IMG/VR virus record: IMGVR_UViG_3300047510_002514
Coordinates: 1 to 21,698 of that record
DNA length: 21,698 nucleotides
Source: a virus
Reading direction: 5' to 3' (one strand)
In this document: positions 15,461 to 19,775 of the stretch, in pieces
Position numbering within the stretch: the stretch's first letter is position 1
Layout: each line of letters starts with the position of its first letter
The notes under the pieces: model-generated
The model's input: only the letters and a program-made list of their open reading frames with translations
Told to the model about the DNA's origin: nothing
Databases searched by the model: none
Program-made: the position numbers and the translations under genes

Positions 15461-15622
15461 ATGTCTAAGAATCAACTTACAAAAGATGAGTTAAAAGTTC
15501 GCGTTTTAAAACTAAAAAATAATTTGTATAATGAACATATTAGGCATGATATGGATATGAAAGGACTCGCTCATAAATATCTGAACGAAGTTCTTGATAT
15601 TATTGATGAGTACAGATATTGA
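15461..15622 (+). CDS. Small helical phage protein (53 aa)
   Basis: This is a 53-residue, Lys/Leu/Asp-rich helical protein: MSKNQLTKDELKVRVLKL at the start and HKYLNEVLDIIDEYRY at the end. It begins directly after the terminator T-tract, so ribosome access depends on how that hairpin folds. It overlaps the following GIY-YIG gene by 17 bases, which supports coding. I recall similar short proteins in T4-like cyanophages; function unknown. Confidence 0.7.
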   Translation: MSKNQLTKDELKVRVLKLKNNLYNEHIRHDMDMKGLAHKYLNEVLDIIDEYRY

Positions 15623-16049
15623 CTATGAAAACCCTTGGACCTATAATGGAAAGGTTTTTGAGTCTAGTGATATTCAAGATCATTTTGGTTTTGTTTATCA
15701 TATTCAAAACAATCTCAATGGTAGGGAATATATTGGTAGAAAATATTTTTGGAGTTTTAGAACTCCTAAGGGGAAAAAACGAAAAGTAAAATCCGAGTCC
15801 AACTGGAAGGAGTATTATGGGTCTTGTCCGGAACTTAAAGAAGACATTGACAAATTTGGCAGAGAAAATTTTAGTCGAACTATCTTATCATTACATAAAA
15901 CAAAGGGCAAAACAAACTTTGAGGAAACCAGACAGTTATTCGCCCATAACGTCCTTACCGAAGGACTTGACGACGGAACCCCAAGGTACTACAATAGCAA
16001 CATCCTCAACAGGTACTTCCGAAAAGATTATTATGAACGCAACGACTGA
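15606..16049 (+). CDS. GIY-YIG-type putative endonuclease
   Basis: This 147-residue protein has the GIY-YIG nuclease fold signature. GFVYHI at 28-33 and REYIGRKYF around 40-48 are the two short motifs. They are followed by TPKGKKRKVKSESNWKEYYG and ELKEDIDKFGRENFSRTIL, a pattern known from free-standing putative endonucleases of many phages. No DNA-binding homing module is evident, so it could be a small homing-type or a structure-specific nuclease. I chose the ATG at 15606 over the TTG at 15594; both overlap the previous gene. The 3' end overlaps the next gene by 17 bases. Confidence 0.85.
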   Translation: MSTDIDYENPWTYNGKVFESSDIQDHFGFVYHIQNNLNGREYIGRKYFWSFRTPKGKKRKVKSESNWKEYYGSCPELKEDIDKFGRENFSRTILSLHKTKGKTNFEETRQLFAHNVLTEGLDDGTPRYYNSNILNRYFRKDYYERND

Positions 16050-18851: not shown

Positions 18852-18923
18852 TCCACAATGGCGCAGCGGTAGCGCAGAAGACTGTTAATCTTTTGGTCCC
18901 TGGTTCGAATCCAGGTTGTGGAG
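18852..18923 (+). tRNA. tRNA-Asn (anticodon GUU)
   Basis: The acceptor TCCACAA pairs with TTGTGGA. The D-arm is GCGCAGCGGTAGCGC, the anticodon loop is CTGTTAA and the T-arm is CCTGGTTCGAATCCAGG. The discriminator is G. Confidence 0.96.
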
Positions 18924-18934
18924 TTGAAAGGGTT

Positions 18935-19154
18935 GGAAATGTCCGATTCTTTCATATTGGTTCTGGGTGGAATTCCCAGCAGTTCCGTTAGGGACTGTCC
19001 TTTGTAGGTTCGATACCTACATCTTCCTTATGGGAGATAAGAACGGCTATTGGAAACCTTCGTAGGTGCCAAAACCTCTCCCCAGGTCGATGTTTAAACT
19101 GGTGCTTGGGTGAATGTAAAGAGTGGGGACATAGGTAAAGTCCCCAACACCTAC
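18935..19154 (+). ncRNA. Candidate structured RNA containing a perfect T-arm
   Basis: Contiguous helices run in order. CCGAT/ATTGG (18943-18960), CTGGG-TGGAATT-CCCAG (18963-18979) and CAGTTCC-GTTA-GGGACTG (18980-18997) come first. Then a canonical T-arm GTAGG-TTCGATA-CCTAC (19004-19020) and ATCTTCC-TTAT-GGGAGAT (19021-19038). Next are a D-arm-like hairpin with a CTATTGGAAA loop (19041-19061) and GTAGGTG/CACCTAC (19062-19068 with 19148-19154). The last encloses GGGGAC/GTCCCC (19125-19145). No upstream acceptor strand properly matches ATCTTCC, and the anticodon-like loop lacks U33, so a plain tRNA is unlikely. It could be a type II tRNA relic, a permuted tRNA or tmRNA-like gene, or a new phage RNA. 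Confidence 0.5.
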
Positions 19155-19158
19155 CACA

Positions 19159-19232
19159 TCCTCTGGTAGTCTATTGGTAAGGACAGGCAGACAATGCACT
19201 TGGAAACTAGGTTCGATTCCTAGACAGAGGAC
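19159..19232 (+). tRNA. tRNA-like gene with broken anticodon stem
   Basis: TCCTCTG (19159-19165) pairs with CAGAGGA (19225-19231). The D-arm GTCT..GGAC has a TTGG loop, and the T-arm is CTAGG-TTCGATT-CCTAG (19207-19223). The acceptor is one layer longer than normal because an unpaired G19166/A19224 sits between it and the other arms. The 17 bases where the anticodon arm belongs (19186-19202) form no 5-bp stem, so no anticodon can be named. It is a pseudo-tRNA or a divergent one. Confidence 0.55.
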
Positions 19233-19237
19233 CTTTT

Positions 19238-19310
19238 GCCCGATGACCCAGCTAGTGAAGGGACCTGCCTTACAAGCAGGCATCGGTAGGGGCGGAACCT
19301 ATATCGGGCA
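19238..19310 (+). tRNA. tRNA-Val (anticodon UAC) with abnormal T-loop
   Basis: The acceptor GCCCGAT pairs with ATCGGGC. The anticodon arm is CCTGC-CTTACAA-GCAGG (TAC), and the variable loop is CATCG. The T-stem GTAGG/CCTAT is intact, but the loop reads GGCGGAA instead of the near-universal TTCRANY, so U54 and U55 are missing. It probably shares the upstream tRNA transcript. Confidence 0.85.
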
Positions 19311-19323: not shown

Positions 19324-19340
19324 AATACAAAAAGAGTATA

Positions 19341-19775
19341 ATGGAAAAACTGTTTAAACTCTTAAGTGATGCTCAGTCATCACTTTTTGTTTTATTTCAT
19401 AAAACTTGGGCGTTTCACTGGAATGTAGTTGGAGAAGATTTTACTCAACTACATCAACTCTTTGGCGGACAGTATGAAACGATGTTTGAAGAGATTGACA
19501 GACTCTCCGAACATATGAGATACTTAAATGTAAAACCATTAAGTTCTCTTTCAAGAATGCTTGAGGTTACACAAATTAAAGAGGCAGCAAGTTCATCTGG
19601 AGCAAAAGATATGCTTCAAGAACTTCTGGATAATAACACTAAGTTTTGTGAGTTGATGGTAGAGATTTCGGAAGAAGCAGAGCAACAAAAGTCTTATGCA
19701 ACTGCTAATCTAGTTCAAGATTTAATGGAATCTCACGGTAAGTTTGTATGGCAATTAAGATCACATTTACAGTGA
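19341..19775 (+). CDS. dps: Dps-family ferritin-like DNA-protection protein
   Basis: This 144-residue protein belongs to the Dps/ferritin-like family, dodecameric iron-storing proteins that protect DNA from oxidation. The N-terminal helix leads to HKTWAFHWNVVGEDFTQLHQ, which is the Dps signature (H26-W-N-V-x-G, H38). MFEEIDRLSEHMRYLNVKP follows. Compared with E. coli Dps (H51, H63, D67, D78, E82), the equivalents are H26, H38, G42, D53 and E57, so one ferroxidase aspartate is replaced by glycine. The ATG at 19341 was chosen; an in-frame TTG at 19314 is less likely. No Lys-rich DNA-binding tail is seen. It sits amid tRNAs. It may protect phage DNA or capture host iron (inference). Confidence 0.88.
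   Translation: MEKLFKLLSDAQSSLFVLFHKTWAFHWNVVGEDFTQLHQLFGGQYETMFEEIDRLSEHMRYLNVKPLSSLSRMLEVTQIKEAASSSGAKDMLQELLDNNTKFCELMVEISEEAEQQKSYATANLVQDLMESHGKFVWQLRSHLQ

Follow-up and report, generated by a model that had tools for sequence, protein, structure and literature searches.

Several described RNAs carry the parts of a tRNA in an order other than that of the cloverleaf. Circularly permuted tRNA genes are described as bearing BHB motifs (PMC3978253), and their transcripts as being circularised and then cut again into standard tRNAs (PMC10085705). The latter paper reviews natural RNA permutations in its introduction, where no phage tRNA-like RNA is among those described. The Y RNA YrlA (RF02553) follows, in the Rfam consensus, the order stem, T-arm, sealed acceptor hairpin, two bases, D-arm, stem. 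Its tRNA-like domain is reported to be modified by tRNA enzymes, and YrlA to tether PNPase to the Ro protein (PMC8394870); a paper on an RNA repair operon suggests that it might competitively inhibit an anticodon nuclease (PMC7790460).

Here we describe module A, an apparently new tRNA mimic in cyanophages, in which a T-arm and an acceptor-like hairpin also precede a D-like segment. It was found in IMG/VR virus record IMGVR_UViG_3300047510_002514, all 21,698 bases of which were analysed and are called the window below; other viral loci are given L numbers.

The locus and its elements

The best matches of the record are Synechococcus phages bearing T4-type genes, for example DSL-LC03 and S-SRM01 (taxonomy Kyanoviridae). 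ARAGORN calls a tRNA array in the order Arg, Leu, Gly, Asn, after which come three elements named hairpin H, module A and module B, and then a tRNA-like gene (Table 1). A SegE-type GIY-YIG endonuclease (15594-16049) and a ferritin/Dps-like protein gene (19338-19775) lie near the array.

Between 18925 and 19159, ARAGORN made no tRNA or tmRNA call, and between 18935 and 19154 neither did RF00005 or ARAGORN. No Rfam 15 family reached its cut-off on module A or B, or anywhere in 18924-19160. When E values up to 5 were admitted, the stretch gave five matches, namely the neighbouring tRNA-like gene, an antisense match on the same gene and three weak ones, which we take for chance and which include permuted tmRNA at 11.4 bits. 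The 237 nt from 18924 to 19160 fold better than all of 200 dinucleotide shuffles (−86.7 versus −67.6 ± 4.8 kcal/mol, z −3.96).

A first-pass annotation of the window had read 18935-19154 as a single chain of about 220 bases. The helices of this chain are real, but they belong to three separately conserved elements, since the combination in which H, A and B occur differs between homologues. The 7-bp helix GTAGGTG/CACCTAC (19062-19068 with 19148-19154) is likewise present, yet the 80-base insert attributed to it is a separate three-way-junction RNA, module B.

Table 1. Position of the structured elements and of their parts in the window
Feature	Position	Strand	Remarks
Hairpin H	18925..18954	+	13 bp, between tRNA-Asn and module A; fold z −5.47, 0/200 shuffles
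Module A, permuted tRNA-like RNA	~18956..19061	+	~105 nt; conserved core 18961-19056
P1 5' strand, closing stem	18959..18962	+	pairs with 19055-19058; may extend to 18956
P2, anticodon-arm-like hairpin	18963..18979	+	loop TGGAATT, G at the U33 position
P3, long variable-arm-like hairpin	18980..18997	+	98.7% of cells paired; 2 pairs changed on both sides
P4, T-arm, T-loop TTCGATA	19004..19020	+	99.5% of cells paired; 2 pairs changed on both sides
P5, acceptor-stem-like 7-bp hairpin, TTAT cap	19021..19038	+	99.7% of cells paired; 1 pair changed on both sides
3' tail AAGAACGGCTAYTGGARA	19039..19056	+	conserved; D-loop-like TTGG; final two bases pair in P1
Module B	19062..19154	+	three-way-junction RNA closed by GTAGGTG/CACCTAC
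tRNA-like gene called tRNA-His(ATG)	19160..19233	+	variable anticodon region around GACAA-type loop

Structure and covariation of module A

Read from P5, module A presents a 7-bp acceptor stem, two bases, a D-like segment with TTGG, the inserted P1, P2, the class II variable arm P3, the T-arm P4 and again the acceptor. The result is a cloverleaf that opens in the D region and has TTAT connecting its acceptor ends. Much of this had been recognised in the first-pass annotation: the T-arm GTAGG-TTCGATA-CCTAC is present where it had been placed, ATCTTCC (19021-19027) does pair with GGGAGAT (19032-19038) over the TTAT loop, and the order T-arm, acceptor, D-like segment, in the absence of an ordinary tRNA, holds for module A. 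The D-arm-like hairpin that it had drawn around TTGG found no support; bases 19057-19058, which it had used there, pair and covary with 18959-18960 as the outer stem P1.

We aligned 43 distinct copies with their flanks (mean column identity 90%), leaving out L004, which lacks the 3' flank, L024, whose 5' part is missing, and L093, which is L062 again. From this alignment RNAalifold recovers P1-P5 unguided, and 95.2% of cells pair in the named structure. Both partners have changed in 10 of the 31 pairs (28 cells), a number that none of 500 shuffles reaches and that compares with 2-7 pairs in slid-partner controls, with the reservation that the copies are close relatives from few lineages, and relatedness alone can make sequences exceed shuffles. 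These compensatory changes sit in P1, P3, P4 and P5. P2 is nearly invariant, with 99.5% of cells paired and no both-sided change.

In the closing stem P1, the pair 18959-19058 occurs as GC, CG or UA and the pair 18960-19057 as GC, AU or GU, both unbroken in 43/43 copies, and inner G-C pairs are replaced by C-G, U-A or A-U in L005, L063 and L070/L087. The three outermost pairs of P1, each formed in 18-28 and missing in 15-25 of the 43 copies, supply 3 of the 10 covarying pairs and should not be leaned on. In P5, the wobble at the 3:70 position is U-G in 40/43.

A D-stem competing with P1 (18960-18963 with 19041-19044) can pair in 98.3% of cells, with zero both-sided changes. Folded in isolation, the sequence of the window favours a permuted D-stem in the energy model (18960-18964 with 19040-19044), with a probability of 0.89 versus 0.08 for P1. 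Averaged over the 43 copies, pairing probabilities are 0.96 for P5, 0.95 for P4, 0.74 for P3 and 0.41 for P1, and when three fixed structures are compared, P1 combined with a 5-bp P2 has the lowest energy in every copy. As judged by these models, the D-stem may be an alternative fold of module A. Overall, we are confident that module A is a real, discrete and structured tRNA-like RNA.

Copies, flanks and conservation

A 24-mer taken from the T-arm and acceptor has exact matches in 60 viral contigs, and in 59 of them the match spans at least 84 nt; the exception, L048, is an ordinary tRNA gene. In the 59, it mostly starts near window position 18958 or earlier and stops near 19058-19060, and in some it continues into module B, with or without an intervening gap. 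Further patterns brought the number of module A copies to 77 including that of the window (76 other viral loci), with 39 distinct cores, while 14 loci that matched a pattern without containing module A were set aside as ordinary tRNAs or chance (L048, L064, L065, L066, L069, L071, L076, L080, L081, L083, L084, L085, L088 and L090). Many of the 77 copies are near-identical. The spacer of L006, a 115-kb record, is identical to that of the window, and the two may be the same virus.

The surroundings of module A vary. Counted with shifts of up to 5 and a threshold above the level of shuffled flanks, its flanks form 18 combinations, drawn from 7 kinds on the 5' side (77 copies) and 9 on the 3' side (76 copies); two of the nine 3' kinds look, by eye, like variants of module B and of the hairpin cassette module C described below. 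A count without shifts gives 10 and 13 kinds, which is an overcount, some kinds differing by a shift alone, and a gapped comparison was too permissive, merging all flanks into one kind. On the same strand and within 1 kb, a called tRNA lies upstream in 72 of the 77 copies and downstream in 72; on the opposite strand there is none. Module A is a cassette of the tRNA arrays of T4-like cyanophages. Two copies, L062 and L075, have zero ARAGORN tRNAs within 1 kb and a group I intron about 180-260 nt downstream (RF00028, 53.6 bits, at L062:843-1040 and L075:5051-5248), which by eye lies inside a tRNA-like gene.

Module A is strongly conserved. Among 1,132 pairs from 55 sources whose dps-like third positions differ by 40-60%, it diverges by about 5%; in the same pairs tRNA-Gly differs by 22% and tRNA-Ser(UGA) by 27%, figures to which ragged ends and paralogues may contribute. 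Picking up the loci with patterns that lie within module A biases the set towards similarity, but the conservation is not only a matter of ascertainment, because a looser pattern with 19 fixed letters returned 62 loci and none of them was new. Part of it could have another source. An HNH-type ORF lies within 800 nt upstream in 32/77 copies, and in 24/77 its stop falls at most 31 nt from the core start, inside module A or just before it; at the type-1 HNH loci, the frame of the HNH protein takes its C-terminus from the 5' half of module A. Because such ORFs so often directly precede or enter module A, it is plausible that it spread with homing endonucleases and that this adds partly to its conservation.

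As to hosts, two exact-pattern scans of 84,980 species genomes gave no match; diverged copies would escape such patterns. With the covariance model of module A, R1, none of 6 and none of 4 isolated phages gave a match at E up to 0.001, and the record of L063, included as a positive control, was detected. When the spacer was compared by blastn with 50,697 phage records (E up to 1), a set that may omit records very near the genome of the window, hairpin H was matched in three records of S-PM2 and part of the T-arm region in phage Eos; the divergent copies L092 and L070 as queries returned nothing further. Among the matches listed in a search of the open-licence literature, no paper describes the RNA of module A in its title or abstract.

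Comparison with known RNAs

In module A, the T-arm, the 7-bp acceptor stem and the variable arm of a tRNA are all present as P4, P5 and P3, with covariation, and the acceptor is sealed. Position 33 of the P2 loop, a U in canonical tRNAs, is G in 43/43 copies. In some relatives (L001, L002, L013 and L025) module A is itself called a tRNA-Phe by ARAGORN, the position of the anticodon being odd. In algae and one archaeon, circularly permuted tRNA genes also have their 3' half before their 5' half, and some are opened in the D region like module A, which however lacks U33 and resides in a phage of bacteria. A BHB-type permuted gene giving a decoding tRNA was rejected on the absence of U33.

Permuted two-piece tmRNA (RF04321) has the same order of T-arm, acceptor 3' strand, loop and acceptor 5' strand, but module A has a loop of 3-5 nt, a long variable arm and no conserved tag. 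The tmRNA interpretation considered in the first-pass annotation did not hold: the score of 11.4 bits is far from the cut-off of 47, and the alignment falls on other hairpins, P2 and P3, with no tag kept in the one frame considered. A short ORF starting from the P5 loop, MGDKNGYWKPS, was rejected as a tag or gene, its ATG being missing in 6/43 copies (one has GTG) and an in-frame stop being present in the L005 group. Reading the tail as coding sequence (MGDKNGYWKP), or likewise the 5' half (GSGWNSQ.FR), gave no conserved gene, the ATG not being kept. A frame in L062, MGDKNSYWRP..., first taken for a homing endonuclease, is 65 aa long. HEARO/omega-RNA gave no Rfam match.

Two small stable RNAs, rnaC and rnaD, are annotated in the tRNA cluster of T4, and module A resembles them as a candidate stable RNA in the tRNA cluster of a T4-like phage. 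R1 found no match in the T4 tRNA region (E up to 5) or in the whole T4 genome (E up to 0.001). A stable RNA of the phage tRNA cluster, one of the options named in the first-pass annotation, is still the best general reading.

Close in layout is YrlA, in which a T-arm, an acceptor hairpin sealed by a loop and a D-like loop with GG lie inside a stem formed by the RNA's own ends, in the same order as in module A. Unlike YrlA, module A has the hairpins P2 and P3 before the T-arm, and its D-stem shows no covariation. Module A looks like a second, independent layout of the YrlA type, with a sealed acceptor and ends elsewhere. The YrlA model gave no match in 18900-19240 (E up to 5) or in the L062 record (E up to 0.001). 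By the tests run, module A is not a decoding tRNA, a tmRNA, T4 rnaC/rnaD or a YrlA Y RNA.

One copy does neighbour a Ro-like gene (DUF2828/DUF7788, phrog_850, E 5.5e-151), which occupies L062:1757-3295 and ends 343 nt upstream of module A; by eye, L092:1-95 is the 3' end of such a gene. A Ro-like gene was found in 1 of 20 module A records, most of them fragments, and in neither the 159-250 kb records nor that of L006, although the missing parts of fragments, or the hosts, might still encode one; TROVE was absent from 10/10 module A records, again mostly fragments. Phage B23 has a Ro-like gene and no module A. The Ro-like gene of B23-like cyanophages (in L062 and L092 as above, and at L094:5037-6512) is followed by an unusual tRNA-like whose anticodon region is long; annotated in B23 as tRNA-Undet (220408-220517), this is a candidate Y RNA partner. 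Furthermore, in mycobacteriophage LeBron a YrlA-like RNA, unannotated in the record, lies 125 nt behind the Ro-like gene (L095:7550-7658; 39.8 bits versus a cut-off of 69, E 2.6e-7).

Likely origin from a tRNA gene junction

In 77 sources, 9 of 26 in one search and 68 of 68 in another, module A reaches at least 94 bits with R1. Its next matches are to a junction between tRNA-Ser(GCU) and tRNA-Ile(GAU), in L063 (32.9 bits), L072 (32.9 bits) and L030 (31.5 bits), with everything else at 20 bits or below. In L030 the junction aligns with R1 over its full length and in register: the Ser anticodon arm corresponds to P2, the variable arm to P3 and the T-arm to P4, the Ser acceptor 3' strand with the GTAT spacer and the Ile acceptor 5' strand to P5, and the Ile D region to the tail. 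The parts thus have the same order in both, with a 4-nt spacer ending in TAT and with GGGAGAT; the junction however belongs to two intact tRNAs, whereas module A lacks the outer halves and is closed on itself by P1.

L063 and L072, which have equal scores and the same module, are probably close relatives, so the resemblance amounts to two independent cases. Much of the match would also be expected from a permuted tRNA-Ser by itself, because P5 must pair. The tRNA-Ser/tRNA-Ile junction is a likely but not proven source of module A, and with a likely source in sight the origin of tRNA mimics becomes testable. The first-pass annotation had noted that homologues might reveal two decayed ordinary tRNA genes; module A does resemble a junction of two, but it is maintained and not decaying.

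Possible roles

Our preferred reading, to which we give about an even chance, is that module A is a non-decoding permuted tRNA mimic that is cut from the tRNA transcript and probably binds or decoys a tRNA-recognising protein. It would be co-transcribed with the tRNAs and freed by the tRNA-processing enzymes of the host, and P1 and the sealed P5 would keep it stable and unchargeable. The T-arm/acceptor stack and the variable arm might then engage a tRNA-recognising protein, most likely as a decoy or scaffold; such a target could be a tRNA-cutting defence nuclease, or module A could be the tRNA-like half of an RNP, as with YrlA. An unchargeable class II mimic with variable arm, T-arm and acceptor would suit such a role. 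The decoy or scaffold function for a tRNA-binding protein is a tentative proposal, somewhat less probable than not. Phage tRNA arrays are usually read as a codon supply; a conserved non-decoding mimic that diverges less than the adjacent tRNA genes suggests that they also make RNAs aimed at tRNA-binding proteins, for example at tRNA-cutting defences.

Module A might instead act in cis, as a processing or folding spacer of the pre-tRNA whose T-arm/acceptor stack lets RNase P, RNase Z or RNase E enter or guides them. Stacks of this kind are recognised by RNase P, module A lies mostly on the same strand in tRNA arrays, 5-6 nt before the next tRNA-like gene in L030, L016 and L010, and other array spacers hold hairpins too. 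However, module A has a closing stem of its own that is kept by compensatory change while its neighbours vary, it is missing from many tRNA junctions in the same arrays, and the L062 and L075 copies have no called tRNA nearby, though the intron downstream seems to interrupt a tRNA-like gene. We consider a spacer function unlikely.

Another reading takes module A for a two-piece permuted tRNA, in which the TTAT loop is opened by RNase P and a 3' processing enzyme, as these would act between tRNA-Ser and tRNA-Ile, and CCA is added, giving a possibly chargeable molecule comparable to two-piece tmRNA. The gene order is that of permuted tmRNA, the TTAT loop corresponds to the GTAT spacer of a real tRNA-Ser/tRNA-Ile junction (L087 has GTAT), and P1 would hold the pieces together. 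A variable arm is a SerRS feature and a G-U at 3:70 an AlaRS feature, and module A has the former and, in 40/43 copies, the latter. Yet the loop has just 3-5 nt, there is neither U33 nor a tag, the G-U is lost in 3/43 and the discriminator position is mostly T, which makes this reading improbable. We think it a little more improbable still that a permuted tRNA-like derived from the junction is opened in the TTAT loop by RNase P and 3' processing into a two-piece, P1-clamped, chargeable and non-decoding RNA. If true, such a form would enter translation or its quality control, as a tagless phage counterpart of tmRNA.

Module A could also be a relic of a tRNA-Ser/tRNA-Ile fusion, kept only by hitchhiking with homing endonucleases and tRNAs. 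The full-length R1 match to the junction (31.5-32.9 bits in L030, L063 and L072 against at most 20 elsewhere) and the HNH-type ORFs that end within 31 nt of the core start in 24/77 copies are consistent with such a history. P3 and P5 should have been lost from a relic, though, and module A has compensatory changes in four helices and a divergence below that of nearby tRNA genes, so that we hold the chance of this to be small.

Least of all do we favour a phage Y RNA, with module A as the tRNA-like half of a Ro60-binding RNA and P1 leading into the Ro-binding stem: the YrlA-like order of elements, the Ro-like gene near L062 and, by eye, its 3' end opening L092, and an outer stem that seems by eye to enclose module A in L075 and L092 point that way, but the YrlA search of the window region and of L062, the rarity of Ro-like genes and absence of TROVE in module A records, most of them fragments, and the Ro-like gene of B23 without module A speak against it, and we regard it as very doubtful.

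Neighbouring elements

Hairpin H is an independent element. In phage S-PM2 it follows a tRNA-Thr (match 93.5%), and module A is absent there, R1 having no match in S-PM2d. Module B is a separate structured RNA that also occurs behind spacers other than module A. Across 12 distinct copies, 9 of its 24 pairs have changes on both sides, which 0/500 shuffles reach; these compensatory changes lie in two of its three helices, while the closing stem and the ATAGGTAAA loop are invariant.

The tRNA-like gene that follows module B is labelled Met or Leu in other loci and exists in 14 distinct versions. Its anticodon stem changes around the GACAA-type loop, the versions of the window, L001 and S-PM2 being different, and it scores 32.2 bits versus 52-69 bits for the 8 tRNAs that pass the Rfam gathering search. 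It is probably non-decoding, a second such tRNA-like beside module A.

Other RNAs were seen on module A loci. Above the Rfam cut-off, abiF RNAs occur at L001:35-71, L005:1585-1621, L014:1585-1621 and L070:2952-2988, and wcaG RNAs at L014:6230-6327 and L063:7351-7451. Another hairpin cassette, module C (CTAAATCCTA..TAGGTCGGGG..), is found at L001:3624-3668 and L096:3032-3090; it follows module A in L001 and precedes it in L062 and L075, while S-PM2 has module C without module A.
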